A DNA stretch of 64,000 nucleotides from assembly GCA_902522385.1 (NCBI GenBank), contig CABYVK010000003.1, positions 1 to 64,000 on the forward strand, given 5' to 3'. The stretch comes from an uncultured Pelagibacteraceae bacterium. Its GTDB lineage: Bacteria; Pseudomonadota; Alphaproteobacteria; Pelagibacterales; Pelagibacteraceae. Below the pieces are notes generated by a model, which was not told the DNA's origin, did not search any database, and worked only from the letters and a program-made list of their open reading frames with translations. Positions 1,721 to 35,477 of the stretch are shown here, piece after piece. The position numbers and the translations under genes were made by a program. Positions within the stretch are counted from its first letter, which is position 1. Every line of letters starts with the position of its first letter.

Positions 1721-2265
1721 TGTTTGCTGAATTTTTAAATATAATTTTTAAGTCAATAAAATTAGACAAAACTCTTTATTCGGATAATAAAAATTTTGGA
1801 GAAGCATCAATATACTTTGCTGGTATTATAATGATCCTAGATGGTATCGCTGGAGCAGTAGCAGCTAATACCATTATTAAAACAGCTATTGCAATGTCTG
1901 GTCTAACTGCAATAGTTACTTGGCTAATATGGGCGATTTTTATCTTTGTAATTGGAGTTAAATTATTTCCTGATAAACAAACCAAAGTTTCGTTCAAAAA
2001 AGTTTTAACAGCTGTTGGATTTGCACATGCCCCTGGTTTATTAAGATTTTTTGCGGTCACACCAGATTTAATGATACCAATAATTTTTCTTACCCAATTT
2101 TGGATTTTTGCAGGTTTAATAATTTCAACTAAACAAATATTGAGTTTAAAATCTAATTTTAAATCTTTTGGGATTGTACTTTTATCTTTTTTAATAATTG
2201 CATTTTTATCTATCTCATTTGTGATGAGTAGAATGAATATGCTTCCAGTTAGTCAAATTAGTTAA
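1720..2265 (+). CDS. YIP1-like integral membrane protein
   Basis: 181 aa, multiple hydrophobic segments, FVIGVKLFPDKQTKVSFKKVLTAVGFAHAPGLL resembles Yip1 domain proteins. Confidence 0.6.
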   Translation: MFAEFLNIIFKSIKLDKTLYSDNKNFGEASIYFAGIIMILDGIAGAVAANTIIKTAIAMSGLTAIVTWLIWAIFIFVIGVKLFPDKQTKVSFKKVLTAVGFAHAPGLLRFFAVTPDLMIPIIFLTQFWIFAGLIISTKQILSLKSNFKSFGIVLLSFLIIAFLSISFVMSRMNMLPVSQIS

Positions 2266-2429
2266 AGCGGAAAAATAGTCTTAGATACTCTACAAGATTT
2301 ACATAATTTAAACCCAGTAAGAATTAAATTTTGAGTGACACTTTCGTCTTCATCTTTGCATTCATCGCAAATATTATTTAATTCTTCAGTATCTGTATCA
2401 ATATATTTTTCATCAATTTTATCAGTCAT
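2262..2429 (-). CDS. 55-aa putative zinc-ribbon-like mini-protein with two CxxC motifs
   Basis: Read from the minus strand: MTDKIDEKYIDTDTEELNNICDECKDEDESVTQNLILTGFKLCKSCRVSKTIFPL; below the 60-aa cutoff of the ORF track; start overlaps end of the upstream CDS by 8 nt. Confidence 0.6.
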   Translation of the reverse strand: MTDKIDEKYIDTDTEELNNICDECKDEDESVTQNLILTGFKLCKSCRVSKTIFPL

Positions 2430-3033
2430 TATCAGTCAAACCAGCACCTGCCGCACCTTCTTTTAAACTGTCGCTTTCTTCGACAAAAGTTTCTTCAGAT
2501 AACTTGTATAAATTATTCCATTCATCGTCTGTAAAGTTGTCTTCATTTTCAAGTAGATTTACCTCAATTGTATTTGCTATCTTTGGAAATTCTTGATCAA
2601 TAAAATTTGAACTAATATTTACATTTAAATTTAGTAAAATTTTTTTTTCATCCATTTTTACATAAATTTTTTTTCCAATAATTTCTGATGAACGACTTAT
2701 AAAGGAAATAAAAATTATTGGATAAGCAACATTTTTGAATTCAATTTTTTTTAAATTTTCTAAAATATTTATTTGATCTAAAAAACTAACACCTAAAGTA
2801 ATTGGACAGTAAGGATTTTTTGATGAAGAGTTATTTTCACTAATTAAATTTAAATTTTCAAATTTACTTTTGTTTTTTTCATTAAAATATTCATTAAGGT
2901 ACTTAATACCCGGTAAACTAAATAGCTCTAACAACCTTATACTTTTTCCTGTTTCCTCAGAAACTCCCCAAGAATATCCTGCTGCCTTTGAAGCTCTTTT
3001 AACAGTAGTTTCAATTTCACTCAGTGATTTCAT
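2422..3033 (-). CDS. DUF3726-like protein
   Basis: N-terminus SLSEIETTVKRASKAAGYSWGVSEETGKSIRLLELF matches my memory of DUF3726 proteins. Confidence 0.6.
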   Translation of the reverse strand: MKSLSEIETTVKRASKAAGYSWGVSEETGKSIRLLELFSLPGIKYLNEYFNEKNKSKFENLNLISENNSSSKNPYCPITLGVSFLDQINILENLKKIEFKNVAYPIIFISFISRSSEIIGKKIYVKMDEKKILLNLNVNISSNFIDQEFPKIANTIEVNLLENEDNFTDDEWNNLYKLSEETFVEESDSLKEGAAGAGLTDND

Positions 3034-3035
3034 TA

Positions 3036-4697
3036 TTAAATATTGGTTTTATATACCCACTGCTCGTCATAACTTTTTAACTCATTTGGAAGTGGAGCAC
3101 CTTGGAACATACAAATTCTTAACCATTTGTCAGATCGTGGATCAAATTTTAATGCCCCAAAAAAAGATAATTTTAGTCTTAGCATATCAATTGGCATTAA
3201 ATCTTTACCAATTGTATTATCTTGTATTTCTGAATAAGGAAATTTTTCTACAATGAACGCTCTTCTTACAACATGTCTTAACTCAGAATTCGATGTTAAA
3301 AACTCAGCAATAGTTAAACTATTTTTTGAAACTAATAATTTGTCATAAAGTTTTTTTATATCTCTTGCTATTGCTAGAGGTTGTTCTAATTCTGATCCAT
3401 GTTCTTCAAAACGATCCGCCAATCTAGGTTCTTCTTTATTTTTTGAAATAAACCAAAAGTTTTTATTATTTTCTTTTTCTTCAAAATTAATATCTAGAAT
3501 ATTAGGATACTTTGCTTTAATGATATTACGCAATTCTTCAACTTTTCTATGAGTTGGAATATTAAAATATTTTTCTTCGTCTGAACTCATTTCTTTTACC
3601 AAAGGATTTATAATATCGTTATAAGGTTCCATCATTATTGAGACTATGTATTCAATACATTCCTCGCAAGTATTATCCTCTAACCATTGATAGATTTTGT
3701 TAAAAGGATATTTGCTCTTAAAATTAAAATCTTTATCTATAAAATATAAGAATTTTTCAACATCCTTTAATAATGAAGAAATTTTTTTTTGCTGATATTC
3801 GCTATCAGTGTTCCAGCTTGTAATATTTTTTAATGATTTTTTTACACAATCTATAAACAAATCGCTATCTTGACTTTCTACATCTTTGATTTCTCTAATT
3901 TTCTTAAGTGCTTTTTCTCTACTTAAAATCCAATTATTTAATAGAGTTGGGTGATTGACTATAAATGGAGCCATACCCAAGCCTGTGGAATTACCTATTC
4001 CCAAGTTTTTACAAATATTATCATCTAGCTTAACAGCTATTTTTGGATTTTTATGATAAGCAACATGATTAACTTGATCAAAAGTAAATTGTCTTACCAA
4101 ATAAACCAGCATCATTTCTAATCTGAATGGACCATTAATTTCTTTACGATTTTTTATTCTAAATCGATCTGCAAGACCAAATTTGCCTGAGCCATATACT
4201 GCTGTAGTCCTATATAAATATCCAACTTTTGATAATAATTTTAAATCTGGCTGCTTACCTTTGCTCAAACTTTCAACTACATGATTATAAATTCTTACTG
4301 ATTTATTTGCTCTCGATAAAGTTAATTCTTTATAAGAAAGTCTGCCAACTTCTTGTTTTGGAACTTCATTTTTTAATCTTTCAATATCTTTTTTTGTAGG
4401 AACCCCATCATGTAATGTAAAAGCTGCATCCCATTTTGTGGCAATAACTCTATCCGATCTTTCTTCATCTTTGATTTCGTTTGCAAAACAAATTAAGGAA
4501 TAAACTCTTTTATTTTTTTTAAATGAATAAACAGCTTCTCCAAAACCATTTTCATTTAAATCAAATAAATCTCTTTTATATTCCCACTCCTTAAATTCAT
4601 TGAGAAAACTTCTTAAAAAAGATAATTTTGACTGATGAAAAGATCCTAGCCTCGATAATTTCATTATCTTATTTGGGTCTCTTAATTCAACTTTCAT
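3036..4697 (-). CDS. Conserved hypothetical protein, 553 aa
   Basis: Long intact ORF, 2-nt junctions to both neighbours; no family recognised. Confidence 0.8.
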   Translation of the reverse strand: MKVELRDPNKIMKLSRLGSFHQSKLSFLRSFLNEFKEWEYKRDLFDLNENGFGEAVYSFKKNKRVYSLICFANEIKDEERSDRVIATKWDAAFTLHDGVPTKKDIERLKNEVPKQEVGRLSYKELTLSRANKSVRIYNHVVESLSKGKQPDLKLLSKVGYLYRTTAVYGSGKFGLADRFRIKNRKEINGPFRLEMMLVYLVRQFTFDQVNHVAYHKNPKIAVKLDDNICKNLGIGNSTGLGMAPFIVNHPTLLNNWILSREKALKKIREIKDVESQDSDLFIDCVKKSLKNITSWNTDSEYQQKKISSLLKDVEKFLYFIDKDFNFKSKYPFNKIYQWLEDNTCEECIEYIVSIMMEPYNDIINPLVKEMSSDEEKYFNIPTHRKVEELRNIIKAKYPNILDINFEEKENNKNFWFISKNKEEPRLADRFEEHGSELEQPLAIARDIKKLYDKLLVSKNSLTIAEFLTSNSELRHVVRRAFIVEKFPYSEIQDNTIGKDLMPIDMLRLKLSFFGALKFDPRSDKWLRICMFQGAPLPNELKSYDEQWVYKTNI

Positions 4698-4699
4698 AA

Positions 4700-5686
4700 T
4701 TAAATTGATTTATAAAAATTGTACCAGTTATTTCCAAGTATTCCATGTGTCTCGGTATCTGAAAAACCTGTTTTTTTCAGACCTTTTTCAATATTTGAGA
4801 AGCCTCTTGCGTCAAGAAACCAATCTGGTTGTTTTGGAAAGCCTGGTTTATTTTTTGAACCCTCACCAAAATTTTTACTTTTAGACCAAGAGCCATTTCT
4901 CATCCACTCTACAATAGTGTCTGGATGATCTAAGCAAAGATCTGATCCTATTCCTATTTTTGTTATATCCATTATTTCAGCAGTTTTTGCTACCATTTCA
5001 CAAAAACTATCTAGAGTACAATTTGTATTATCTTTTAAATGATGAGGGTATAATGACAAACCCAACATGCCACCACTATCACTTAAAATTTTCAATAAAT
5101 CTGAAGATTTGTTTCTTTTAGCCGGATGCCAAAAAGAAGGATTTGCATGAGTTATTGCAATTGGTTTTTCACTTAAGTCAATTGCATCTAGAGTGCTTTT
5201 TTCTGCAGAATGTGACATGTCAATGACAAGGCCAACTCTATTCATTTCTCTTATAACCTCACGTCCAAAATTTGTAACTCCACTATCTACTTTTTCATAA
5301 CAGCCTGTTGCTAGTAAAGATTGGTTATTATAAGTAAGTTGCATAAATCTACATCCTAATTGATGAACCTTTTCAACAAGCTTTATGTCATCTTCAATTG
5401 GAGAACAATTTTGAAAACCAAAGAATATTGCAGTTTTATTTTCTTTATTAGCTTTTTCAATATCTTGAAAATTATTACCAGGAAAAATTAAATCAGAATT
5501 TTCATGAAATAACTTTTCCCATTTCTTTATTTCAAGTTTTAATTCATCAAAATCTTCATGGTAAACAATGGTAACATGGACAGCATCCAAGCCAGCAGAT
5601 CTATTAATCTCGAAGATTTTTCTAGACCAATTACAATATTGAAGATTATCGATTTTATAATTCATAGTATCCTTAACTCTAATCAA
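4700..5686 (-). CDS. M19 (renal dipeptidase)-like amidohydrolase, non-canonical
   Basis: FGFQNCSPIEDD, LVIDMSHSAEKS, AITHANPSFWHPAKRN and GIGSDLCLDHPD follow the M19 layout; HxD motif and bridging Glu not present. The start is probably at an internal ATG (MNYKIDNLQ). Confidence 0.75.
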   Translation of the reverse strand: MIRVKDTMNYKIDNLQYCNWSRKIFEINRSAGLDAVHVTIVYHEDFDELKLEIKKWEKLFHENSDLIFPGNNFQDIEKANKENKTAIFFGFQNCSPIEDDIKLVEKVHQLGCRFMQLTYNNQSLLATGCYEKVDSGVTNFGREVIREMNRVGLVIDMSHSAEKSTLDAIDLSEKPIAITHANPSFWHPAKRNKSSDLLKILSDSGGMLGLSLYPHHLKDNTNCTLDSFCEMVAKTAEIMDITKIGIGSDLCLDHPDTIVEWMRNGSWSKSKNFGEGSKNKPGFPKQPDWFLDARGFSNIEKGLKKTGFSDTETHGILGNNWYNFYKSI

Positions 5687-10768: not shown

Positions 10769-11356
10769 TTATTTAGACTCAAAGCCAAACTCTAGAGATG
10801 CATCTGTGATAGAATGATATAAAGATTCTCCAAAACTTCTTAGCGCAAATAACCTTACTTTATTTGGATTTTTACCTAACCTATCTACAGTGAAAGCTAT
10901 TCCATTATAAGTTGAGTTAATTGAATTATTTTTATCTAGTGTATTAAAATTAAAAGGACATCCTTTTTTCAAAACTTCTATCGTATCATTTCCCTCGATT
11001 TCAATAATAGCTCTTGAATGAGATAAATCTGTTACAGCAAAGTCTGTATCTTTAAATTTATCTACTACATTTTTTATTAAATCTTTTTTTGTTGAAACTA
11101 AAAGCCAGTTTTTTGGTCCATTCCACATAATCCTTGTAGTTTCATTAAACACTACTGTCAGAGGTTCATTTTTAAAATTTAAACCATCAATATCAATACC
11201 GTCAAATGAAACTGAAGAATTTTTATACTGAACTATTTGAACAATTAATAAATTTTTGATTTCAGATATTTTTAGTAAATCATTTTCATTTTTACCTTCA
11301 TAATCTCCAAAGTAACCTTTTGTATGAACATTTAATAAAGCTGAAATCAATGTCAT
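10769..11356 (-). CDS. soxG: Sarcosine oxidase gamma subunit-like (alternatively N-methylglutamate dehydrogenase subunit)
   Basis: Position at the end of a B-D-A-G operon; [29 protein letters not shown]. Confidence 0.85.
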
Positions 11357-14349
11357 GATCTAACTCTTTCACCTTTTGGGTCTACGTAATGTGATGAAAC
11401 TATCTCAACTGGAATTACTTTATTTTTAAGTGGCGACATCGCAAAAAGCTTTTGACCTATCATTTTTTTTCCATCTTTTAAAATTGCTAGGGAAAAAGGA
11501 TTGTCATATTCAACACTCCAACAAGATGCAGAGATATGACCTAATTTTGGATTTGGTAATGGTGCTTTATCATCTTTTACTAAGTGAGAGCCCTCTGGTA
11601 TACTTGTTTGTTTATCTAACGGAACTACTCCTACTATTCTTTGTCTATCTTGAGCGGTAAAAGCAGATCGTTGTAATGATCTTTTTCCAATAAAATCTTT
11701 CTTTTTACTAACAAGACCTTCTAAGGCGTTATCAAATGGAATTGTTCTGCCATCAAGTTCTGATCCAGCAACATGTCCCATTTCAATTCTAAGAGTTGAT
11801 AATGCTTCAGTTCCATATGGTTGGATGTTAAATTCCTCGCCAACTTCCATGATTTTTTCCCACATAAAGTTTCCATAATCAGATTCAACATTTACTTCAT
11901 ATGCAAGCTCCCCTGAAAATGAAATTCTAAATATTCTTGCTTTTACTCCAAATAAATATCCTTCCATAAAGCCCATGAAAGGCAAACCTTCATTTGATAC
12001 ATCAGAATTTGGAAATAATTTTTGAAGTAAATCTCTAGATTTAGGTCCAGCGATAGCTGCTCCAGCCCATTGTTCAGTAGTTGAAACTACATTCACATTT
12101 AATTCTGGCCAAACTAATTGCAAATAATATTCTAAATGCGAAAGAACATTTGCTGCTTGAGCTGTAGTTGTAGTCATATGATAGTGATTTTCTGAAATTC
12201 TTGTAGTTGTTCCGTCATCCATAACAATTCCATCTTCTCTTAACATTACACCATATCTAGCTTTACCAACTGGTAGCTTTAACCATGCATTTGTATAGAC
12301 TCTATTTAATAATTCTGCTGCATCAGGACCTTTGACATCAATTTTTCCTAAAGTTGTTACATCACAAACCCCAACATTTGTTCTAACGTTTTTAGCTTCT
12401 CTTTTAGATGCCTCAAATAAATTTTCATTTCCCTTTTTATAATATCTAGGTCTTAACCAAATACCTGCATCAACAAAAACTGCATTATTTTTTTCATGCC
12501 ATTCATGCATTGGTGATTTTCTAGTTGGTTTTGAATGTTTTCCAACTTCCCTTCCAACAATTGCTCCAATTGAGACAGGCGTATAAGGTGGTCTAAAAGT
12601 TGTATGACCAACAGCTGGAACCACTTTATTTTCAATGTCAGAAACTAGCTGAAGACCATTTAAATTACTTGTTTTACCTTGGTCTGTTGCCATACCTAGA
12701 GTGGTATATCTTTTTACGTGTTCAATTGATCGATAACCTTCTCTTAAAGCTATTTCTACATCAGATACAGCTACATCGTTTTGAAAATCTAAAAATCTTT
12801 TATAATTTTTACCTTTTGGCAGTGGAACACACCAAAACTTATCGTGTTGAGAAGATTTTTTTTCAACAACATTTGGAATAACTACCTCATTATCTTTTTT
12901 TGTAATTTTTTTTGATAACTCACTTGCCGCTTTAAATGAAGTTTTTAATGTTTCATCAAGTGAAAATACTCCATTGGCTGCACCTAAAGTAATTTCATTT
13001 TGTTTTGATTGCCCTGGAACAAAAGCATCAATCTCTTCTTTAAACTTTGTTTTATTTCCTGATTGAGATGCTAAATGAATGGTTGGTGTCCAAAAACCAG
13101 AAACACAAATACAATCACATTTTAAATTTTCTATCTTACCAAGTTGTTTTTTGTCCCTTGAAATACTTGCAATATCTGCAGATTTTACTTTTTTATATCC
13201 TTGTGCTGCAACCACAACATAAGAATTTTTAATGTTAATTCCTAAATTTTTTGCTTCATCAATTATTTCTGACTCGGGATTTTTTCTTGTATCTAAAATA
13301 ATCGGATCTACTCCATGTTTCTTAAATTCAATTGCTGTTTCGTATCCACTATCATTATTTGTAAACACTAGTGGTTTTCTTCCAACTAAAACACCATATA
13401 CTTTTAAATATTCTTTAGCAGCTGAAGAAAGCATTACTCCTGGTGTATCATTATTTCCAAAGACTATTGGTCTTTCAATTGATCCTGAAGAAATTAAAAC
13501 TTCTTTTGCACGAATGTACCATAGTCTTTTATTAGGATGGTATTTTTTAGTTGATGGTAAATGATCACTAACTTTTTCTGACATCACAAGCATGTTGTGA
13601 TCATAGTATCCAAAAATTTGAGATCTATTTTTTACAACAACATTTGGCATTGTTTTAAGTTCTGCAATTATTCCCTCAGCCCAATCTTTTCCTGATTGAT
13701 TTCCAATATTGACATCACTAGTTAGTAAAGATCCACCAAATCTTGGTTTATCTTCAGCTAAAAATACTTTAGCTCCATTTTTTGCTGCAGCATACGCACC
13801 TGCTAATCCCGAAGGTCCTGAACCTGCAATTAATAAATCACAATATTCGTATTTATGTTCATACCTTTCTTTGTCATGTTTAGTTGAAGCTACACCTAAA
13901 CCAGCTGCTTTTCTTATGAAAGGCTCATAAATTCGATACCAAAAACTTTTTGGCCACATAAAAGTTTTGTAATAAAAACCTGCTGGTAAAAAAATTCTCA
14001 AAAAATTATTTATTGCACCAATATCAAAATTAACACTTGGCCAACAATTCACACTTTTTGCTTCTAAACCTTCAAATAGTTCCTGCTCTGTTGCTTTAAT
14101 GTTAGGTTCTGTTTCACCATTTCTATAAAGTTGAACAACTGCATAAGGTTCATCTACACCTGCCCCAAAGAAACCTCTAGGTCTGTGATATTTAAAACTT
14201 CTTCCTACTAAATGAACTCCATTTGCCAATAAAGCTGAGGCTAATGTGTCACCCTCATAACCTAAGTAAGTTTTACCATTAAATTTAAAGGAAAATTTTT
14301 TATCTCTATTTATTAATCCCCCATTTTCAATTCTAAAAGCTTGGGTCAT
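11353..14349 (-). CDS. soxA: Sarcosine oxidase alpha subunit-like (2Fe-2S/NAD/GcvT fusion)
   Basis: 998 aa; [48 protein letters not shown]-terminal GcvT domain. Confidence 0.93.
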
Positions 14350-14618
14350 TAAGCAACTTCCTCATCAGCTTTAAAAGTTCTAAAAATTTCATGAGTTGCA
14401 GTATCTCTTTCAACCTTTATCCATTGTCTACATCCAGAAATATGTTGCCATAGCTCTAAATGCTTTCCTCTTAAACTTTTTCTATTGTAAACAAAATTAT
14501 CCCATTCTTGATCAGAAATTTCTTTATTAAGTTCTGGTCTTTTAACGCTTGCATCACCACCGTATGAAAATTCATTCTGAGATCTCATTCCACAGTGCGG
14601 GCAATTTATGTAAAGCAT
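14349..14618 (-). CDS. soxD: Sarcosine oxidase delta subunit-like
   Basis: 89 aa, INCPHCGMRSQNEFSYGGDA, WQHISGCRQWIKVERDTATHEI. Confidence 0.93.
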   Translation of the reverse strand: MLYINCPHCGMRSQNEFSYGGDASVKRPELNKEISDQEWDNFVYNRKSLRGKHLELWQHISGCRQWIKVERDTATHEIFRTFKADEEVA

Positions 14619-15875
14619 TTATGATATCCAGGTTTTTGTTCCAAGTCCCTTTTCATCAATAAGGTGGCCAGTACTAAATCTATTTAAACTGTAACCAGCG
14701 TTTAATTCATGAACTCTATCTTGCGCAATAGTATGAGCAAATGTCCAACCCGATGCAGGTGTAGCTTTAAATCCTCCATAGCACCATCCACAATTTAAAT
14801 ACAAACCTTCAATATGAGTTTTATCAATAATTGGTGAACCGTCCATTGACATATCCATAATACCACCCCAAGTTCTAAGCATTTTTAATTTACTTAAAAA
14901 TGGCATCATCGCTATTCCTTCAGTTAAAACGTGTTGTAATGTTGGTAAGTTTCCTCTTTGAGCATAACTATTATAACCATCAAGATCTCCACCCATTACC
15001 ATCTCACCTTTGTCAGATTGACTTACATAAAAGTGTCCTGCACCAAACGTAACTACATTATCTAAAACTGGTTTAACTGGCTCAGAGACACATGCTTGAA
15101 GTAAATGAGTTTCAATTGGTAATGTCATATTTAATTTTTCTGCCAAAATATTTGTGCTACCAGCAACACATAAACCAACTTTTTTTGCTTTAATATTTCC
15201 TCTTGAAGTTCTAATGCCATTTATTTTTCCTGCTGAAACATCAAATCCAATTACTTCACAATTCTGAATAATATCTACCCCCATGGAGTCTGCCTGACGT
15301 GCATAACCCCATGCGACAGCATCATGTCTTGCTGTACCTGCACTTGGTTGCATCAAACCACCAAAAATTGGAAATCTTACGTTTTCAGAAAAATCAGCCA
15401 TTGGAATAATTTCTTTAACTTGCTCTCTATTTAAAAGAACAGCATCTATTCCATTTAATCTCATAGAATTTCCTCTTCTCGCGTATGCATTCATTTGTGC
15501 ATCAGAATGCGCAAGATTAATTATTCCTCTTGGAGAAAACATTACATTGTAGTTTAGATCCTGACTCATCTTTCTCCATAAATCCATTCCAAACTCACTG
15601 AACAAACCATTTTCGTCATGCATGTAATTGGATCTAATAATTGTAGTGTTCCGTCCTACATTTCCTCCACCAATCCATCCTTTCTCAATAATTGCAACTT
15701 TTGTAATGTTATGTTCTTTAGCAAGATAATACGCTGTAGCTAATCCATGGCCTCCACCACCAATAATTACAACATCGTATTCTTCCTTAGGTGTTGGATC
15801 TTTCCATGCTAAATCCCAATTCTCATGGTTTGAAAAAGCGTTTTTAACAAGGTTAAATATAGAATATTTTTGCAT
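14619..15875 (-). CDS. soxB: Sarcosine oxidase beta subunit-like (FAD)
   Basis: 418 aa; YDVVIIGGGGHGLATAYYLAKEHNITKVAIIEKGWIGGGNVGRNTTIIRSNY. Confidence 0.94.
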   Translation of the reverse strand: MQKYSIFNLVKNAFSNHENWDLAWKDPTPKEEYDVVIIGGGGHGLATAYYLAKEHNITKVAIIEKGWIGGGNVGRNTTIIRSNYMHDENGLFSEFGMDLWRKMSQDLNYNVMFSPRGIINLAHSDAQMNAYARRGNSMRLNGIDAVLLNREQVKEIIPMADFSENVRFPIFGGLMQPSAGTARHDAVAWGYARQADSMGVDIIQNCEVIGFDVSAGKINGIRTSRGNIKAKKVGLCVAGSTNILAEKLNMTLPIETHLLQACVSEPVKPVLDNVVTFGAGHFYVSQSDKGEMVMGGDLDGYNSYAQRGNLPTLQHVLTEGIAMMPFLSKLKMLRTWGGIMDMSMDGSPIIDKTHIEGLYLNCGWCYGGFKATPASGWTFAHTIAQDRVHELNAGYSLNRFSTGHLIDEKGLGTKTWIS

Positions 15876-23484: not shown

Positions 23485-25638
23485 CTAATCTATGCCAAGA
23501 TGTTTTTTTCTTTTTCCAACCCAAGTTCTAATCAAATTATCAAAAATCAATCCTATAAACGCCACACAGATACCAAGAGTTAAACCAATTCCTGCTCCAT
23601 TTTTATCTGAAAGTGCTTTTAAAATGTATTGACCAAGATCTTCTGTTCCAATGAAAGCTCCAATTATCACCATAAATAAAGCAAAAACTATTGTTTGATT
23701 TAAACCAAGCATCATATGTGGAAATGCTAATGGAAACTCAATTTTTGTTAATCTTTGAAATTTATTTACACCAGACATTGTTGCAGCTTCATGTAAGCCA
23801 ACAGGAACACTTCTAAGTCCCTCTATTGTATATCTAGTTGCAGGAATTGTTGCATAGACAATTACAGCAATTAAAACAGATGTATCTGTTATTCCAAAAA
23901 GCATCATTACAGGAATTAAATATACAAATGATGGGAATGTTTGAAATATATCGCAAACACCTAGCATAAATGCTGCAGATTTTTTGTTTTGAAAACATAA
24001 TGTTCCAACTGTAAATCCTATTAAACAAGAAATAACTACACCAAAAGTTGCCATGTATAACGTTACTAGTGCTCTATCCCACCATGGACTTAATGCTATA
24101 AATAAAGTCAAAGCAGCTACAACTAATGCTGATCGAAATCCTCCAATTAAATATCCTGCACCAACTGCTAGTACCAATGTAGCCACTGCAGGCATTCTTA
24201 AATATAAAGCTCTCATCGGCTGAAGCACATCTTGAATTAACCATGTGTTAAATGCTTTAATATAAACGAAGAAAGTATCAAAAATCCAATCAACTCCTTT
24301 ATTCCAAAAATCTGCTGTTGATATTCCTTTATTATGAGGAATTTCAAACAAGTAATTAAAACTACCTTTGAAAATAAAAGTCCCAACATATGCAAGAATT
24401 ATTCCAATTACGAATGAAGCTGAAAAAAATATTACGTTTTTATTTCTTTGGAAAAATGTCAGATTTCCAAAATAATCTGTTTGTTTATTTGCCCATGCCA
24501 AAGACATTTTATCAAGTAAAATTGCAATTAAACTAATGCATAAACCAGCCTCTAGTGCCAACCCTATATTGAGTTGATTAAGTGCTAACAACAAATTAAA
24601 TCCTAATCCTTTCGCGCCAATGAACGCAGATATAACTGCCATTGAAAAACAAACCATAATAACTTGGTTAACTCCAATTAAAATATCTCTTCTTGCTGTT
24701 GGAATTAGTACCTTGAACATTAATTGCCAGTTGGTACAACCACTCATTCTTCCAGCTTCAATAACTTCTGGAGGTATGGCTCTTAAACCTAATATTGTTA
24801 ATAATATCATTGGTGGAACCGCAACAACCATAGTAATAATTACGGCAGCGTGATCACCTACTCCAAATAAAACAAGTGCAGGAACTAATACAGCGTATTG
24901 TGGCATAGTCTGCATTACTAGAAGAATTGGGTACAATGCTTTTTCAACACGTTTACTTTTGTAAGCTGCAATACCAAGGCCTAAACCAAAAATAAATGAA
25001 AGTGGAGCTGCAACAAGTATAAAAGAAAGTGTTTGCATTGATGGTTTCCATTGACCAAATATAGAAATATAGATCATTGTTAAACCTGCAAACAAAGCCA
25101 ATCCTTTTCCACTTAATTTATAAGATAGTATAGCTGCTCCAGCTGCAACAATGGTCCAAGGTAAACCTGGCAACTCTAACCATGGATAAGCATCAATAAA
25201 ATCCCAACTTGTAAATGCAACAATAGTTTCTAAACCTCCAAGTAAAATCTCCCTAATTAATTCAATTAAAAAAGTCATAAATGAAGTTAAATTTCTACTT
25301 ATCTCTAATAATAATGGTCGAGTTTTAAATTCTTGAGTATCTTCGTTCCAAAACTCCATTGGCATCCATTCATTCATTAAGAAAAATAAAGAGTCATTTA
25401 TCCAAATAGGCAGCCATCCTAGAAGTGGAGGCAATCTCCAAAATACATCAAAGGCATAATACCTAACCTCTTTACCTAGAAAAAAATAAACACTTTGGTT
25501 TGGATCTTTAACAAATTCGGCCTGGCCTCTTATAAATTTATAAGTTTCAGGAACATCAATTGCAAAACATAAAGCAAAAAATACAATTAATAAAAATAAC
25601 CACTGAAATAATTTTGGATATTTTTTTAAATACTCCAT
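23485..25638 (-). CDS. tmoW: Quaternary amine/TMAO-type ABC transporter permease with two duplicated permease domains
   Basis: 717 aa; two related modules (QTMPQYAVLVPALVLFGVGD...LRAIPPEVIEAGRMSG and QTFPSFVYLIPVMMLFGITD...LRSVPVGLHEAATMSG); symbol inferred from the tmm/tdm context. Confidence 0.7.
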   Translation of the reverse strand: MEYLKKYPKLFQWLFLLIVFFALCFAIDVPETYKFIRGQAEFVKDPNQSVYFFLGKEVRYYAFDVFWRLPPLLGWLPIWINDSLFFLMNEWMPMEFWNEDTQEFKTRPLLLEISRNLTSFMTFLIELIREILLGGLETIVAFTSWDFIDAYPWLELPGLPWTIVAAGAAILSYKLSGKGLALFAGLTMIYISIFGQWKPSMQTLSFILVAAPLSFIFGLGLGIAAYKSKRVEKALYPILLVMQTMPQYAVLVPALVLFGVGDHAAVIITMVVAVPPMILLTILGLRAIPPEVIEAGRMSGCTNWQLMFKVLIPTARRDILIGVNQVIMVCFSMAVISAFIGAKGLGFNLLLALNQLNIGLALEAGLCISLIAILLDKMSLAWANKQTDYFGNLTFFQRNKNVIFFSASFVIGIILAYVGTFIFKGSFNYLFEIPHNKGISTADFWNKGVDWIFDTFFVYIKAFNTWLIQDVLQPMRALYLRMPAVATLVLAVGAGYLIGGFRSALVVAALTLFIALSPWWDRALVTLYMATFGVVISCLIGFTVGTLCFQNKKSAAFMLGVCDIFQTFPSFVYLIPVMMLFGITDTSVLIAVIVYATIPATRYTIEGLRSVPVGLHEAATMSGVNKFQRLTKIEFPLAFPHMMLGLNQTIVFALFMVIIGAFIGTEDLGQYILKALSDKNGAGIGLTLGICVAFIGLIFDNLIRTWVGKRKKHLGID

Positions 25639-25641
25639 ATT

Positions 25642-26673
25642 TTAACTACCGTTTTTTCTTCCTCCAAAAACTGTATCTATTATTTTTGAAGGTTTAATTG
25701 ATCCTACAATATTATTATTTGAGTCAACTACTCCTACTAATTTTTCTTGAGTAAGTATTTTCTCTGCAACATTTTCTATAATTTCATCTTTTGATACTTT
25801 TAAATCTCCTAAATTATCTTTACTTGAAGCATCCATTACATCCTCAATAATCAAAACCTTCTCTCTTGGTACTTCTTCAGTAAACTTTCTTACATATTCA
25901 GTTGCTGGATTTAGTACGATATTTGCAGGTGTATCTAATTGTTCAATTATACCATCTTTCATGATTGCTATTCGATCAGCTAACTTTAATGCCTCATCAA
26001 AATCATGAGTGATGAACATGATGGTTTTCTGTAATTTTTCCTGAAGTCTTAAAAACTCATCTTGCATTTCTTTTCTAATCAATGGATCTAATGCAGAAAA
26101 AGGTTCATCTAAAAACCATATATCAGGCTCTACTGCTAATGACCTTGCGATTCCTACCCTCTGTTGTTGTCCACCTGAAAGTTCTCTTGGAAAATAATTC
26201 TCTCTTCCATCTAGTCCAACTAGTTTTACCATTTCCATTGCTCTACTAATACTCTCTTCAGTATTAGTGCCTTTTATTTGAAGCGGAAAAGCAATATTTT
26301 CAACAACTGTTTTATGAGGTAACAAAGCAAAGCTTTGAAAAACCATTCCCATTTTATTTCTTCTAAGCTCAATAAGCTCTTTATTATTTAATTCTAATAA
26401 ATCTTGACCTTCGATAAAAATTTTTCCACCGGTAGCATCCGTTAATCTTGAAATACACCTAAGAAGTGTTGATTTACCTGAACCAGATAAACCCATTACT
26501 ACTAACATTTCTCCTTTTGCAACTTCAAAAGAAGCATTATTTACTCCAACAATGCATCCTCTTTCCTGAAAGGTTTTTGCATCTACATTGCCATTAGACT
26601 CTTCAAGCATCTTTTTGGAATTTTCTCCAAAAATTTTATAAACCGACTCGCATTTGATTACCGTCTCAGACAT
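25642..26673 (-). CDS. tmoV: Quaternary amine/TMAO-type ABC transporter ATP-binding protein (ProV-like)
   Basis: Walker A GLSGSGKST, LSGGQQQRVGIARSLAVEPDIWFLDEPFSALDP; C-terminal CBS-like tail; symbol inferred from context. Confidence 0.75.
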   Translation of the reverse strand: MSETVIKCESVYKIFGENSKKMLEESNGNVDAKTFQERGCIVGVNNASFEVAKGEMLVVMGLSGSGKSTLLRCISRLTDATGGKIFIEGQDLLELNNKELIELRRNKMGMVFQSFALLPHKTVVENIAFPLQIKGTNTEESISRAMEMVKLVGLDGRENYFPRELSGGQQQRVGIARSLAVEPDIWFLDEPFSALDPLIRKEMQDEFLRLQEKLQKTIMFITHDFDEALKLADRIAIMKDGIIEQLDTPANIVLNPATEYVRKFTEEVPREKVLIIEDVMDASSKDNLGDLKVSKDEIIENVAEKILTQEKLVGVVDSNNNIVGSIKPSKIIDTVFGGRKNGS

Positions 26674-26738
26674 AAATTGTTTTAAAGTTATATTAAATTC
26701 TATAAAATTAAAATGTTAATAATTGTTGCCTTTCCTAA

Positions 26739-27290
26739 TTAAAAATTTTTAATAAAATAAACTCTAGTATCAATTCCAGTACTTAAAAAACTTAAAGCTT
26801 CTCCACTTATAGTAATACTTTCATCAACACCTACATTGTTTCCACTAACTGTAAAACCCGCAAAACATTTGTTTTTTTCTTCATCCCATTTGACAAAAGT
26901 CTCATCAATTTTATTTCCATTAATGGTATATAGCTCATGTGCTCTAAAATTTAAGAAATTAGCACCCATTATTGCTCTTTGAGGAATTAGTTTTGTAGCT
27001 TTACACACTTGCTCATATACATCATCCGTTAATTTGTAATGATCAGTTCCATCAAATGAAACTAATATTCCAGAGGGTAGTTTAGATATTAACTCACTTA
27101 GTTTTTTTTCTTCAGCAATTCTCTCTTCCTCTAACTTCATTCTTTTTACTAAATCATCACCTTGTCCAAAAATTCCATTTAAAATACTAAAAGATAGAAT
27201 TACTAATAGAGTAATAAATATAAGACCAATAAATTGTCTCAAAGAATAGGGTAAATCTTTTATTTTATTAATATAATTTTCTTTAGACAT
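26739..27290 (-). CDS. Hypothetical single-TM protein
   Basis: 183 aa, one N-terminal TM; start overlaps end of the MORN ORF by 1 nt. Confidence 0.6.
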   Translation of the reverse strand: MSKENYINKIKDLPYSLRQFIGLIFITLLVILSFSILNGIFGQGDDLVKRMKLEEERIAEEKKLSELISKLPSGILVSFDGTDHYKLTDDVYEQVCKATKLIPQRAIMGANFLNFRAHELYTINGNKIDETFVKWDEEKNKCFAGFTVSGNNVGVDESITISGEALSFLSTGIDTRVYFIKNF

Positions 27291-27667
27291 TATTCTTTTA
27301 ACTTACCGTTCTTCCAAATACCTGTTTTTTGTTTTCCATCAGCCCAAGTAAATGTTCCTTGACCATTCATAAAACCATTAGCCCACTCCCCTTCATAAGT
27401 AGAGCCATCAGGAAATGTTAATGTTCCAATTCCGCTCCAAACACTATTTTTAAATTCTCCTTTATAAATATATCCATTTGGCCAAGTCTCTATACCTTGT
27501 CCCTCTTTTTTTGTAGAAACCCACTCCCCTTCATAAGTGGTTTTATCAGTGTAAACCCACTTACCATAACCATTATCACAATTACCCTCTTTACAACCAG
27601 TGCTTCGGGCAAATACAGAAGTACTTATTAAAAAGCTTAATAATATAAAAAGTAGAAATTTTTTCAT
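27290..27667 (-). CDS. Secreted MORN-repeat protein
   Basis: Signal peptide then repeats YEGEWVSTKKEGQGIETWPNG / YKGEFKNSVWSGIGTLTFPDG / YEGEWANGFMNGQGTFTWADG. Confidence 0.88.
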   Translation of the reverse strand: MKKFLLFILLSFLISTSVFARSTGCKEGNCDNGYGKWVYTDKTTYEGEWVSTKKEGQGIETWPNGYIYKGEFKNSVWSGIGTLTFPDGSTYEGEWANGFMNGQGTFTWADGKQKTGIWKNGKLKE

Positions 27668-27702
27668 GAATTTATTTTACACAAAATCATATAAAAAAAA
27701 AT

Positions 27703-27724
27703 CCCCCCCAACAAGTTGGGGGAG
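27703..27724 (-). terminator. Rho-independent terminator downstream of the tmoX-like gene
   Basis: Minus strand CCCCCAACTTGTTGGGGG followed by ATTTTTTTT. Confidence 0.85.
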
Positions 27725-27748
27725 ATTTTAAATTTTTAACTTTAATCC

Positions 27749-28693
27749 TTATTTAGTAAATGCTTTCCAAACTGACTCGTTATCAGCTAACCATTTTTTA
27801 GCTGCATCTTCGTGAGTCATTTTGTCAACGTCAACTAAAGCTGCCATTGCTCCAATTTGACTTGTAGAGAATGACATTTTCTTAAACGTTGCTGCTGCAT
27901 CAGGATGAGTTTTTGGGAAATCCTCATGAACTGCTTTTTTCAAGTATCCATCAGGAGAACCACATTTACCATCTCCACCATCTTCTGGTCTGCAACCAGC
28001 TGTATATGGAGGGAAGTCAATAAATGTAAAACCAGCACCATCTGTAAAGTTAGGCGTCCAGTTGAAAATAATTGTTCCTCTTCCTTCTTTTTCAGCTGCA
28101 GCTAATTCTGCCCAAAGTGCATCAGCACTTCCAGCAAATTTAACCCACCATAAATCACCTAAACCTAGTGCATCAACCCTTTGCGGAATTAAGTCACCAT
28201 GCCAAGTTTGTGGACCTTCCAACATTCTTCCTTTTCCATCTGGAGAGTCAGGTGTTGTAAAGTTTTTAGCACAATCTGGATTTTTTAAAGCAGTCCAGTC
28301 TGGTAAACCTGGGCATAATCCTTTTTCAGCAACCCAGTTTGGATATCCCATATCCTCAAGAGTTCTTGCTTCATGATCACCCCAATCTAATAAACCACCT
28401 TTATCTAAAGCAGTAGTAAAAGATTTACCAAATGCAGATTCCCATACCTCGTGAGATATAGTTACATCTCCAATTCTAATTGACTCATAAACTGCTTGTG
28501 AGTCAGCGTTAACGTATTTAACGTTATTGCCCATACTTTCAAAAATCCCACCAATAACATAAGCCATTACAATTTGACTTGACCAGTTATGAGTTGGGAT
28601 AACGATAGGCTTCTTGCTATCAGCATTAGAAATTCCCGCAAAACTTACAACAGAAATCACTAGAGCAGATAGTAATGATATTATTTTTTTCAT
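27749..28693 (-). CDS. tmoX: ABC transporter substrate-binding protein, glycine-betaine/TMAO type (OpuAC/ProX fold)
   Basis: Signal peptide; IPTHNWSSQIVMAYVIGGIFESMGNNVKYV, LGDLWWVKFAGSADALWAELAAAEKEGRGTIIFNWTPNF; symbol inferred from context. Confidence 0.75.
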   Translation of the reverse strand: MKKIISLLSALVISVVSFAGISNADSKKPIVIPTHNWSSQIVMAYVIGGIFESMGNNVKYVNADSQAVYESIRIGDVTISHEVWESAFGKSFTTALDKGGLLDWGDHEARTLEDMGYPNWVAEKGLCPGLPDWTALKNPDCAKNFTTPDSPDGKGRMLEGPQTWHGDLIPQRVDALGLGDLWWVKFAGSADALWAELAAAEKEGRGTIIFNWTPNFTDGAGFTFIDFPPYTAGCRPEDGGDGKCGSPDGYLKKAVHEDFPKTHPDAAATFKKMSFSTSQIGAMAALVDVDKMTHEDAAKKWLADNESVWKAFTK

Positions 28694-28835: not shown

Positions 28836-31175
28836 ATGTTAGGGACAAGTATAGATATTAAATATCCTGGTTTAAATATATTACCACCTGGAGTTGAAAG
28901 ACATGTTGTTAATGGTGGTGGTCTAACTGCTTTTCAAATTTTTCCTGATGATGAATTAGAAATTATTAATAATGAGGGTAATCAAATTTGTGAAATAATT
29001 TGTTTTAACAAAGATGGTAAATCTGATGTTGGAATTTTAAATTTAAAATCAAATAATGAAAAAAATTACATTAGAAATATTCTTAGTGGGAATGATGAAA
29101 CAATTTTAGCAACCAACTATCAATTAAAAAAAAGAAATTTAAAAATTTCTAATTCAAAATCATCAATTATATTTGATTTGGACACAGAGCCTGGTGAAAA
29201 AATTAAATTAAAATCAAAAGATAAATGTTACGCAATATTTTCAGCACCTGGCGAAGATATGGATGTTACAAAACAAAATCCACCAACTGATTTAACTATA
29301 TTTGTTAAAAGAGCTAAAATTGTTAATGATAAGGAATTAAATGTAATTCCTGATCCTGTTTTCGAACCTGTTTACGAAGAAAATATAAATAAAGAAACTT
29401 CAATATCTTATGAGGTTAAAGAAGGAGATTATATTCAGGTGATAAGTCCAACTGGCAGACAATGTTCTGACTTTGTGGCTTTCGATACAAGAAAATTAGA
29501 AAAAGGAATTGAAAAAGGATTAGACTGGCAAACCACGAGAACATTCATGGGTAATACTTTCCCAGGACCAGGTTTGTTTTCTAAATTTTATGATACAGAT
29601 CATGAGCCACTTGTTGAAGTAATAAGGGATACTGTTGGTAAACATGATACTTTTAATCTTGCATGTACTTCAAAATATTATGAAGATGCGGGGTATTTTG
29701 GTCACCCAAACTGTTCGGATAATTTAACTGAAAGTATGTCGAAATATGGTGTTCAGAAACAAAAAGGTTGGCATGCAATTAATTTATTTTTTAATACCTC
29801 AGCTGGAGGATTGAATTCTGTTATTTCTGATGAATCTTATTCAAGGCCTGGAGATTATGTAATGTTTAAGGCTTTAAAAGATTTAACAATAGGAACAACT
29901 GCGTGTCCAAGTGATATAGATCCTTGTAATTCATGGAATCCTACAAATATATTTGTTAGAACTTACGATAAAAATAAAGAATTTAATAAGTCATTTGGTT
30001 TTAGAATGAAAACAGACTCTGAAAATAAACTTACTAGAAATTCTGGCTTTTATGAAAGAACTTCAAAATTAACTAGAAACTTTGTTGATGCTAGAGGGTT
30101 TTGGCTTCCAAACGATTACACCAAACATGGTTTGGTTAATGAGTACAATGCTTGCAGAAATGATGCTGTATTAATTGACCTATCATCACTAAGAAAATTT
30201 GAAATAATTGGTCCTGACGCTGAAGAGTTAATGAACTACACTCTTACAAGAAATATAAAAAAACTTTCTGTTGGGCAGGTTGTATATTCTGCAATGTGTT
30301 ACGAAAATGGAATGATGTTCGATGATGGAACTCTTTTAAGATTAAGCGAAACAGGTTTTAGATGGATATGTGGAGATGAGTATGGTGGAGAATGGCTAAA
30401 AGAAATTGCAAAAAAAAAGAATTTTAATGCTATTGTTAAAAACTCTACTGATCAAATTAGCAATGTATCTTTGCAAGGTCCAAAAAGTAGAGAAATTTTA
30501 AAAAAAATTATCTTTACACCACCTACACAGCCTTCGATAGATGAGTTGGGCTGGTTTAGATTTACAATTTGTAGAATAGAAGAGCTTCAAGGTATTCCGT
30601 TAATTGTTTCTAGAACAGGTTATACTGGTGAGTTAGGTTATGAAGTTTGGTGTCATCCAAAACATGCTCCTGAAGTTTGGGATAAATTAATGGAAGCAGG
30701 TAAAGATGATGGATTGATACCAGCAGGGTTCGCTGCCTTAGACAAACTAAGAATTGAGGCAGGTTTAATTTTATTTGGCGCAGAGTTTGATGGAGAGCAA
30801 GATCCTTTTGAAGCTGGTATTGGTTTTGCCGTTCCACTAAAAACAAAAGAAGAGGATTTTATTGGTAAAGAGGAATTGATTAAAAGAAAAGCTAACCCAC
30901 AAAAGAAATTGGTAGGCCTAGAACTTAATGGAAAAGAAATAGCAGGCCACGGAGACTGTGTTCATATTGGAAGATCACAGGTTGGTATAGTTACCAGTGG
31001 ATGCTTGTCCTCTACTTTGAATAAAAATATTGCTCTTTGCAGAATAGATGTTCAATACTCAGAAATTGGTACTGAGGTTGAAATAGGTAAAATCGATGGT
31101 CATCAAAAAAGGATTGGTGCTAAAGTTGTTGGTTTTCCATTCTACGATCCAACCAAATCAAGAGTCAGATCTTAA
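28836..31175 (+). CDS. tdm: Trimethylamine-N-oxide demethylase (DUF1989-GcvT fusion)
   Basis: 779 aa; N-terminal DUF1989-like half (TSISYEVKEGDYIQVISPTGRQCSDFVAF, CTSKYYEDAGYFGHPNCSDN), C-terminal GcvT half (EFEIIGPDAEELM-type, RTGYTGELGYEVW); next to tmm and transporter. Confidence 0.85.
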   Translation: MLGTSIDIKYPGLNILPPGVERHVVNGGGLTAFQIFPDDELEIINNEGNQICEIICFNKDGKSDVGILNLKSNNEKNYIRNILSGNDETILATNYQLKKRNLKISNSKSSIIFDLDTEPGEKIKLKSKDKCYAIFSAPGEDMDVTKQNPPTDLTIFVKRAKIVNDKELNVIPDPVFEPVYEENINKETSISYEVKEGDYIQVISPTGRQCSDFVAFDTRKLEKGIEKGLDWQTTRTFMGNTFPGPGLFSKFYDTDHEPLVEVIRDTVGKHDTFNLACTSKYYEDAGYFGHPNCSDNLTESMSKYGVQKQKGWHAINLFFNTSAGGLNSVISDESYSRPGDYVMFKALKDLTIGTTACPSDIDPCNSWNPTNIFVRTYDKNKEFNKSFGFRMKTDSENKLTRNSGFYERTSKLTRNFVDARGFWLPNDYTKHGLVNEYNACRNDAVLIDLSSLRKFEIIGPDAEELMNYTLTRNIKKLSVGQVVYSAMCYENGMMFDDGTLLRLSETGFRWICGDEYGGEWLKEIAKKKNFNAIVKNSTDQISNVSLQGPKSREILKKIIFTPPTQPSIDELGWFRFTICRIEELQGIPLIVSRTGYTGELGYEVWCHPKHAPEVWDKLMEAGKDDGLIPAGFAALDKLRIEAGLILFGAEFDGEQDPFEAGIGFAVPLKTKEEDFIGKEELIKRKANPQKKLVGLELNGKEIAGHGDCVHIGRSQVGIVTSGCLSSTLNKNIALCRIDVQYSEIGTEVEIGKIDGHQKRIGAKVVGFPFYDPTKSRVRS

Positions 31176-31180
31176 AAAAA

Positions 31181-31531
31181 ATGCCAAAAGAAAAAAAGAC
31201 GTTATTAGATTTTTGGGAAGATCAAATGAGACAGTCGCATACAGCTAGTAACTATTTTTTTAGAAAATCTCCTTCTCACTATCATATGATGTTATTAGTA
31301 ATGTCTGCACATAAAGAAAATAAAAAACTATCTGTTGAGGAGCTTAAAACTAAATTATTTAAAACATCTAGACCTAAATCTGCATTAATTATTACTGAAG
31401 CTTGTGAAAAAGGATTCTTTCGTCTTGAAAAAACATCAACAGACCAAAGGGTAAAAAATATAATACCTAGTGATTCTTTTATTAAAGAATTTAATGAATA
31501 CCTGGATACCTTAAAAAATATAAGTTATTAG
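31181..31531 (+). CDS. Small conserved protein, possible winged-helix/MarR-like regulator
   Basis: 116 aa; LSVEELKTKLFKTSRPKSALIITEACEKGFFRLEKTSTDQRVKNIIPSDSFIKEFNEYLDTL resembles a wHTH layout; 5 nt after tdm. Confidence 0.5.
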   Translation: MPKEKKTLLDFWEDQMRQSHTASNYFFRKSPSHYHMMLLVMSAHKENKKLSVEELKTKLFKTSRPKSALIITEACEKGFFRLEKTSTDQRVKNIIPSDSFIKEFNEYLDTLKNISY

Positions 31532-31632
31532 CGACAAATTTCACAAAAATTGAAATATCTAAATTATATATATAATTTTTAGTTCTATAAAAAATTATAT
31601 TAATTACTATTTGCAAAAAATAATATTTTTAT

Positions 31633-32961
31633 ATGACGACATTACCTTCTAAAGCTAAAGTAGTTATCATTGGTGGTGGAATTCATGGACTAAGTACTGC
31701 TTGGAAACTTTCAGAAACATATAAAAATCCTGGTGACATAATTGTATTAGAAAAAAAAGATACTGCAGCTGGTGCAAGCGGAATTGCATGTGGTGTTGTA
31801 AGAAATAATTATTTTCAACCAGCAATGAGGGAGCTTATGGCTCACTCAGTTTCAGTTTGGGAGAGCGATCCTAAAGCATTTAAATACAATCCAGTTGGTT
31901 ATATGCAAATATCACCCGAGGTAATGCATGAAGATGTTGCAACTATTTATGAACAACAAAAAGCTATTGGATACGAGTCTGTCTTCATAGAGGGTGAAAA
32001 AGATTGTTCAAATTATATGAAGGGTATTTTTGATGATTGGCAGGCACAAGGTATCACTTCTGTACTTCATGAAAAAAAAGGTGGATACGCATTTAACAAA
32101 GATTCAATTAAAGCACTTGAGAGTAAATCTACATCAAATGGTGTTCAAGTGATGAAAGGTGTAAAGGTAACAGGATTTAAAAAAGGAAGTAACAGTCAAG
32201 CTGTTACAGGAGTAGAAACAGATAAAGGTACAATTGAGTGCGAACAGGTTGTTATCGGTGCAGGTCCTTGGGCAAGAGATTTTTGGAATATGTTAGAGTT
32301 ACCTAAAACAGCTAACATAAAAGGTAAAGATGGAAAAATGCATGAAACTGATATGTGGACATACTGGATGTTACAAGAAGGTGTTATTGGTGTTGAACCA
32401 GATTTTTTGAAAACAAATGATGGAAAACAACCACCTGTAGTTCATGTTGACTCTACAGCTCCATTATATTCAGACAAAACTAAAAAATTATTAACAGATA
32501 AAATTTGGGGAATTTATTATAAACCTGATATTGATGGATTAGGTGTTCAAGGTGGTACTTCACCTTACATAGTCAAAAAACATTTTGATCAAGTTAATGT
32601 TGATCCTTATGGAATTGAGTCTCCTGAGTATCAAACTACTGATGCATTCAGTGAAATGTGGTGTTCAGCTTTAGCGCATTGTCAAAAAAGATTTGAGGGT
32701 AAATCTGATTTATATAGAAAAGGACCATCGGGTGGTCTTGGATGCATGACGCCAGACTCTTTTCCAATCTTTGATAGGTTTTTTGAAAACGTTTACATGA
32801 TTGCAGATGCAAACCATGGATACAAGATGATCGGTGTTGGTGAGCTTGTTGCAAAAGAAATTCTTGGTACTGAAAGTGATTTGTTAAAACCATTTAGATT
32901 CAACCGTTACGAGAAGGGAGAACTTCACCCTACTTCGAACAGTCCGTTTCCTTGGAGCTAG
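31633..32961 (+). CDS. FAD-dependent DAO-type oxidoreductase (sarcosine/dimethylglycine oxidase beta-like)
   Basis: VVIIGGGIHGLSTAWKLSETYKNPGDIIVLEKKDTAAGASGIACGVVRNNYFQPAM. Confidence 0.85.
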   Translation: MTTLPSKAKVVIIGGGIHGLSTAWKLSETYKNPGDIIVLEKKDTAAGASGIACGVVRNNYFQPAMRELMAHSVSVWESDPKAFKYNPVGYMQISPEVMHEDVATIYEQQKAIGYESVFIEGEKDCSNYMKGIFDDWQAQGITSVLHEKKGGYAFNKDSIKALESKSTSNGVQVMKGVKVTGFKKGSNSQAVTGVETDKGTIECEQVVIGAGPWARDFWNMLELPKTANIKGKDGKMHETDMWTYWMLQEGVIGVEPDFLKTNDGKQPPVVHVDSTAPLYSDKTKKLLTDKIWGIYYKPDIDGLGVQGGTSPYIVKKHFDQVNVDPYGIESPEYQTTDAFSEMWCSALAHCQKRFEGKSDLYRKGPSGGLGCMTPDSFPIFDRFFENVYMIADANHGYKMIGVGELVAKEILGTESDLLKPFRFNRYEKGELHPTSNSPFPWS

Positions 32962-33030
32962 ACTCTAAGCCTAGACACAAATAAATTTTTCAGCTACGTT
33001 TGAATAAATTAAATTCATTAAGAGGTGAAA

Positions 33031-34500: not shown

Positions 34501-34532
34501 GTCACAGAAATAGATAGAAAGGGTATAAATAT

Positions 34533-35477
34533 ATGTGTGGAATAGCAGGTTTAATTCATAGAGGAAAATCCTCAAATGTAGGGAGCGAATTACAAGGTAT
34601 GCTTCAAGCATTAAAACATAGAGGAGAAGATTCTACAGGATACGCATTATATGGAGATACAGATGGAAAAAACTTCATTATGCGTTTTAAAGTTGGAGAA
34701 AACGTAGGAGAAGGAAGTTCATCAGTTATGGAAGATGTGTCTGTATACGATGAAAGAAAAAAAATTGTAGATCAAACTCTAGCCGAAATGGGAGCTAAAA
34801 TAGTTAAAGAAGAAAGAACTCTTCCTTACTCACTAAGATATGAGATTGATTATGATACAAAAGATTTGTTAGACTTTTCACAAAGAATTGAAAGTATTCC
34901 AGGTGTAGAAATTCTATCTATGGGAAAATCTTTAGAAGTAATTAAAGATCTTGGAAATGCTAAAATGGTCTGTGACAGATATAGTTTAGATAAAGTAGTT
35001 GGAACACATGCAATCGGTCATGCTAGAATGGCAACTGAATCAGGTGTGGATATTAAGTCTGCTCACCCTTTCTGGGGTTATCCATTTAGTGATGTATCTG
35101 TAGTTCATAATGGACAATTAACTAATTATTGGAATAACAGAAGAGTTTTGGAAAACAAGGGAATGAGATTTATGTCTGAATGTGACTCAGAATTAATTGC
35201 AGTTTATATTGCAGAAAAAATGAGACATGGAGCAACTTTAGAGGAAGGAATGAAAGAGTCATTAACTGGTCTTGATGGGGTTTTCACATACTTTGTTGCA
35301 ACTAAAGACTCATTAGGTATGGCTAAAGATACAATGGCTGCAAAACCTTTGGTTTTGTATGAATCTGATGATTTAGTAGCAATGGGATCAGAGGAAATTG
35401 CAATTAGGTCTGTGTTACCACAAGAAATTGATACATATGATCCGTTTGATGGGGAGGTGAAAGTATGGCAAATCTAA
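34533..35477 (+). CDS. mgsA: N-methylglutamate synthase subunit A (class II glutamine amidotransferase)
   Basis: MCGIAGLIHRG..., HRGEDSTGYALYG, GHARMATES. Confidence 0.88.
   Translation: MCGIAGLIHRGKSSNVGSELQGMLQALKHRGEDSTGYALYGDTDGKNFIMRFKVGENVGEGSSSVMEDVSVYDERKKIVDQTLAEMGAKIVKEERTLPYSLRYEIDYDTKDLLDFSQRIESIPGVEILSMGKSLEVIKDLGNAKMVCDRYSLDKVVGTHAIGHARMATESGVDIKSAHPFWGYPFSDVSVVHNGQLTNYWNNRRVLENKGMRFMSECDSELIAVYIAEKMRHGATLEEGMKESLTGLDGVFTYFVATKDSLGMAKDTMAAKPLVLYESDDLVAMGSEEIAIRSVLPQEIDTYDPFDGEVKVWQI

Follow-up and report, generated by a model that had tools for sequence, protein, structure and literature searches.

The first 64,000 nt of contig CABYVK010000003.1 (assembly GCA_902522385.1), from an uncultured Pelagibacteraceae bacterium and here termed the window, carry four tightly packed minus-strand genes at positions 2262–5686. 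This raises the question of what such an operon does for its host, as its products are an M19-like hydrolase, a 553-amino-acid protein that belongs to no named family (U553), a DUF3726 protein and a mini-protein with four cysteines. The four genes are the compact SAR11 core of a gene cluster that is widespread in bacteria. The operon is probably the SAR11 version of one that breaks down an N-methylated, ring-type betaine, for which homarine (N-methylpicolinate) is the best candidate.

Conservation and neighbourhood of the operon

The SAR11-type assembly comprises 1.09 Mb in 32 contigs. A previous reading of the DNA, made from the sequence alone, described four minus-strand genes with junctions of 2 nt, 2 nt and an 8-nt overlap, and this layout is confirmed. 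The open reading frames as first called span 5686–4700, 4697–3036, 3033–2422 and 2429–2262 and are co-directional. The M19 stop at 4700 is followed after 2 nt by the U553 ATG at 4697, the U553 stop at 3036 is likewise followed by the DUF3726 ATG at 3033, and the DUF3726 and mini-protein genes overlap at 2422–2429.

The nearest relatives of the operon are other Pelagibacteraceae loci, with identities of up to 98%. Among the 80 SAR11 loci on which all SAR11 locus counts are based, the M19 gene adjoins U553 in every case, DUF3726 comes after U553 in 79 (the contig ends at the remaining one), and the mini-gene is kept in 74. U553 is present in 26 of 41 near-relative genomes, and thus has a patchy distribution even within SAR11.

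A more general linkage is found outside this group. DUF3726 was detected in 21 of 190 alphaproteobacterial genomes, and in all 21 a U553 gene lies less than 100 bp away on the same strand, whereas U553 was found in none of the 20 DUF3726-negative genomes examined. The link is therefore one-to-one, although the genomes are related and the counts are not independent. U553 occurs in 20 of 249 Proteobacteria genomes, that of the window included. An M19 gene is near U553 in 19 of 20 loci from other Proteobacteria, and M19 together with a DUF3726/Ldh_2-type protein flanks U553 across Alpha-, Beta- and Gammaproteobacteria. The proposal that M19, U553 and DUF3726 form a conserved module is borne out by these counts; the possible objection that U553 and DUF3726 are rarely neighbours elsewhere falls, as they are almost always adjacent.

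The order in non-SAR11 clusters is LysR, then aldehyde dehydrogenase (ALDH)–M19–(BCCT or ProXWV transporter)–U553–DUF3726–Ldh_2, with LysR divergent and, in gammaproteobacteria, an additional Rid-family protein. Rhodobacterales such as Ruegeria TM1040 and Phaeobacter inhibens P66 have LysR, ALDH–M19–(BCCT)–U553–DUF3726–Ldh_2; Aminobacter and Roseateles have LysR, ALDH–M19–U553–DUF3726–Ldh_2–ProXWV, and PurU/FolD are also present in Roseateles. The Ruegeria TM1040 cluster comprises TM1040_RS02315 to TM1040_RS02345, with U553 as TM1040_RS02335. One alphaproteobacterial genome shows ProXWV–ALDH–M19–U553–DUF3726 with a divergent Ldh_2, and in another Pelagibacterales genome M19–U553–DUF3726 lies beside convergent Ldh_2 and ALDH genes. 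The ALDH of the cluster is nearest to 2,5-dioxovalerate/alpha-ketoglutarate-semialdehyde dehydrogenases.

Properties of the four gene products

U553 (3036–4697, minus strand) is enzyme-like and strongly conserved. The absence of a recognizable family, suggested by the sequence-only reading, stands: there is no match in Pfam or NCBIfam, or among PDB sequences searched singly and as a profile, and Foldseek with the structure model gave no meaningful match, so that no characterized enzyme emerged from either type of search. Even so, 49 residues do not vary between SAR11, Sinorhizobium and a haloarchaeon, down to 23% identity. Betaproteobacteria, Vibrio, Rhizobiaceae and a haloarchaeal plasmid all have homologs; the viral contigs searched yielded none. 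The structure model is of moderate quality (pLDDT 75, pTM 0.80), and the best-conserved loops carry the lowest confidence because the alignment contained only SAR11-type sequences, which are 70–98% identical. The lack of a fold match in this model is suggestive of a new fold but is no proof of one.

DUF3726 (2422–3033, minus strand; 203 amino acids; PF12525, 9.6e-22) can now be assigned a fold, that of a degenerate Ldh_2 enzyme. Its structure model has a pLDDT of 88, and the top 18 Foldseek matches (best E 0.017, prob 0.99) consist entirely of Ldh_2-type enzymes, a family that includes DpkA, ureidoglycolate dehydrogenase and YiaK. Distant DUF3726 homologs also match PF02615, the Ldh_2 family. 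Unlike Ldh_2 proteins, which are about 335 amino acids in length and have a Ser-His-Gly (SHG) motif, DUF3726 is truncated and the catalytic motif is deleted; a C-terminal tail, GAGAGxxDND, is conserved. We read DUF3726 as a dead Ldh_2 paralog that serves as a partner or regulator, and propose it as the partner subunit of U553.

The M19-like hydrolase (4700–5665, minus strand; PF01244, 3.1e-68) has the amidohydrolase fold. The reading frame and strand were correctly called, but the start at 5686 is the alternative codon TTG. The ATG at 5665 is the more likely start, as AAGGAT is directly upstream and most SAR11 orthologs are 321–322 amino acids in length, which fits the 321 amino acids this start would give. 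As was proposed, there is kinship to a Pseudomonas protein: the closest PDB entry is 2i5g (E 6.7e-58, full-length similarity), which is the PA5396 amidohydrolase, whose gene adjoins dgcAB in Pseudomonas. The window protein shares the fold with 2i5g and the M19 family and keeps the second-site His, His, Asp and Arg. However, the HxD metal pair is gone and the bridging Glu is replaced by Gln, and both losses are seen in nine of ten aligned relatives as well (the tenth, L034, has an out-of-frame translation and is uninformative). Active-site alignment thus finds no standard binuclear dipeptidase site (HxD, bridging Glu, His, His) in the window protein. As the other residues are kept, hydrolysis through an altered metal site is possible.

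The mini-protein (2262–2429, minus strand) has 55 amino acids and a zinc-ribbon-like CxxC...CxxC arrangement. That it is a real fourth gene is established by a median ratio of non-synonymous to synonymous substitution rates (dN/dS) of about 0.10 across SAR11 and by four cysteines that are 100% conserved; the dN/dS value rules out a chance reading frame or annotation artefact. The mini-protein was seen only in the SAR11 family, and is absent from two U553-bearing genomes of the same order but another family. Annotation tracks miss this small SAR11-specific gene.

Paralogous modules are also present (loci L129, 7941–11437; L037; L126). In Variovorax, a U553-like protein, a small Ldh_2-like protein and M19 are accompanied by IclR and tripartite transporter parts. 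Some Rhodobacterales carry a second copy that is 39–40% identical, and Sinorhizobium pSymB has a copy at 24% identity. On the haloarchaeal plasmid, the U553 homolog is about 30% identical, and genes for an Ldh_2-like partner and a BCCT transporter come after it (L125, 8091–10621).

Homarine as the probable substrate

The neighbouring genes, i.e. LysR, ALDH, a transporter, Ldh_2 and a demethylase of the sarcosine-oxidase/N-methylglutamate-dehydrogenase (Sox/Mgd) type, suggest a larger N-methylated betaine as the substrate, with a carbon skeleton that would end up as N-methylglutamate. Genes of the heterotetrameric Sox/Mgd type are found in the window at 10769–15875 on the minus strand (gamma, 10769–11356; alpha, 11353–14349; beta, 14619–15875), with scores above cut-off for TIGR01372 (1317.7 bits) and TIGR01373 (667.1 bits). 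A SoxA-like gene is within 10 kb of the operon in 61 of the 80 SAR11 loci, many of which are cut by contig ends, and the heterotetramer, with an AraC-type regulator, adjoins the cluster in Ruegeria, Roseateles and Phaeobacter. The tetramer is plausibly the downstream demethylase, encoded outside the operon. From the transporter type, the Mgd-type linkage and a taxonomic match with the reported homarine operon, we infer that homarine is the substrate.

In the proposed route, homarine would be imported through the BCCT or ProXWV transporter, and U553, with DUF3726 as a non-catalytic partner of Ldh_2 fold, would open the pyridinium ring between C5 and C6 to yield an N-formyl-N-methyl C5 semialdehyde. 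ALDH would oxidize C5, the M19-like enzyme would hydrolyse the N-formyl group, a formamide, with release of formate, and Ldh_2 would reduce the resulting C=N(CH3) to N-methylglutamate, which the Mgd/Sox-type enzyme would demethylate to glutamate. The Ldh_2 family includes DpkA/N-methyl-amino-acid-dehydrogenase activity, which supports the reduction step. In this scheme every conserved gene has a single use, and the ALDH and Ldh_2 subfamilies agree with it. The SAR11 operon would retain only ring opening and hydrolysis (M19, U553, DUF3726) together with the mini-protein; unlinked genes would supply ALDH and reductase. A similar logic is reported for the tgn pathway for trigonelline (N-methylnicotinate) in Acinetobacter, where oxidative opening of an N-methylpyridinium to an N-methylformamide is followed by ALDH and a hydrolase. 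The Tgn pathway uses a luciferase-type flavin monooxygenase pair, whereas none of the four window operon proteins matches that monooxygenase family.

The genes of the homarine catabolic operon of Ferrer-Gonzalez and coworkers (2026) are reportedly homABCDER, and its taxonomic range is said to include Rhodobacterales and SAR11. With a LysR and reportedly five catalytic genes, that operon would agree in gene number with the LysR, ALDH–M19–U553–DUF3726–Ldh_2 clusters described above. It differs from the SAR11 form, which has no linked LysR, ALDH or Ldh_2 and has the extra four-cysteine gene; in the window only M19, U553, DUF3726 and the mini-gene are linked, and not the full set of five genes and regulator. 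Homarine catabolism is linked to N-methylglutamate dehydrogenase (PMC13390433), and the present clusters are near genes that may encode either this enzyme or sarcosine oxidase. In R. pomeroyi the mgdABCD operon adjoins the AraC-type tmaR, and Mgd participates in homarine catabolism, the latter statement citing the 2026 paper of Ferrer-Gonzalez and coworkers (Nat Microbiol 11:1531, doi 10.1038/s41564-026-02313-7; cited in PMC13390433). The operon was initially termed undescribed; this is probably no longer true of it as a whole, and as a system it has probably been published, a lead that comes from the citation in PMC13390433. New here are the compact SAR11 form, the four-cysteine gene, the DUF3726 fold, the altered M19 site and a U553 without relatives.

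Several observations weigh against the homarine route. No signature of an oxygenase, a flavin or a metal is seen in U553, and the operon has no flavin reductase. Dedicated ALDH and Ldh_2 genes are not linked in this SAR11 genome, where the best candidates are 31–33% (ALDH) and 36% (Ldh_2) identical. For the linked tetramer, the annotations, including those from a SoxA search in plasmids, do not separate Mgd from sarcosine oxidase.

The missing oxygenase signature favours the main chemical rival, a hydrolytic, O2-free opening with release of methylamine, in which U553 would add water at C6 to give 2-(methylamino)muconate semialdehyde, ALDH would form the muconate, and the methylamine released later would enter N-methylglutamate via gmaS–mgsABC-type genes. 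Such genes are present in the window at 33025–37731, as family-level matches only, and the Rid family, represented in gammaproteobacterial clusters, includes 2-aminomuconate deaminases. However, this chemistry gives the M19-like hydrolase and the Ldh_2 reductase no evident role, and the only Rid-type gene in the alphaproteobacterial clusters examined is a RidA gene that one Phaeobacter copy has upstream of LysR; we regard this rival as rather unlikely. The same kind of operon might act on a different N-methylated betaine, e.g. trigonelline or a proline-type betaine. BCCT and ProXWV carriers accept many betaines, and the paralogous modules of Variovorax and some Rhodobacterales, with their other regulators or transporters, indicate that substrates clearly vary across the family. 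Yet the cluster lacks a Rieske demethylase, the Rieske/ALDH/FAD-oxidoreductase cluster of Phaeobacter being separate and alongside, and the linked Mgd-type operon fits the N-methylglutamate route, so that another betaine appears improbable here.

The sequence-only reading had pointed to methylated-amine metabolism and to a catabolic or maturation module. The catabolic role and the N-methylated link stand, but the specific tie to glycine betaine/dimethylglycine is not supported: M19 is related to 2i5g, the product of a gene beside dgcAB in Pseudomonas, but no dimethylglycine demethylase is among the conserved neighbours. Cofactor or protein maturation could be suggested by the mini-protein and the conserved DUF3726 tail, whereas a LysR, ALDH, transporter and reductase of its own make a complete catabolic route. 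Either role is very doubtful.

Other genes of the window and significance

A plus-strand gene at 206–1564 encodes a DmdA-like GcvT-family protein that scores 224 of 410 bits, under the cut-off for dimethylsulfoniopropionate (DMSP) demethylase. A DmdA-like gene is near the operon in 71 of the 80 SAR11 loci. In another alphaproteobacterial genome, the gene next after the operon is a relative of it (L157, 11315–12421). Betaine-type ABC transporter genes (ProX-like, ATPase, permease) at 23485–28693, minus strand, may encode the importer of the operon substrate. At 28836–37731, plus strand, a protein of the trimethylamine N-oxide-demethylase type (1089 of 1100 bits) is followed by an FAD oxidoreductase and by the gmaS-like and mgsABC-like genes, and from their predicted families these genes represent a methylamine/N-methylglutamate route. 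A Phaeobacter plasmid (L160) appears to hold an island for osmolyte catabolism, in which DMSP genes, an Mgd/Sox-type operon and the Rieske dioxygenase/ALDH/FAD-oxidoreductase cluster are joined to the present operon.

U553 represents an ancient enzyme-like family that is strongly conserved and lacks annotated relatives; given its operon context, a single assay with a single substrate would be enough to test its function directly. Tentatively, U553 and its dead Ldh_2 partner might found an enzyme superfamily of novel fold that acts by opening N-alkylated aromatic nitrogen rings. This superfamily would extend over abundant ocean bacteria, proteobacteria of the soil and haloarchaea and would comprise several substrate-specific branches. 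As homarine is an abundant phytoplankton osmolyte and SAR11 are among the most numerous ocean bacteria, a SAR11 route for its breakdown would matter for marine carbon and nitrogen flow.

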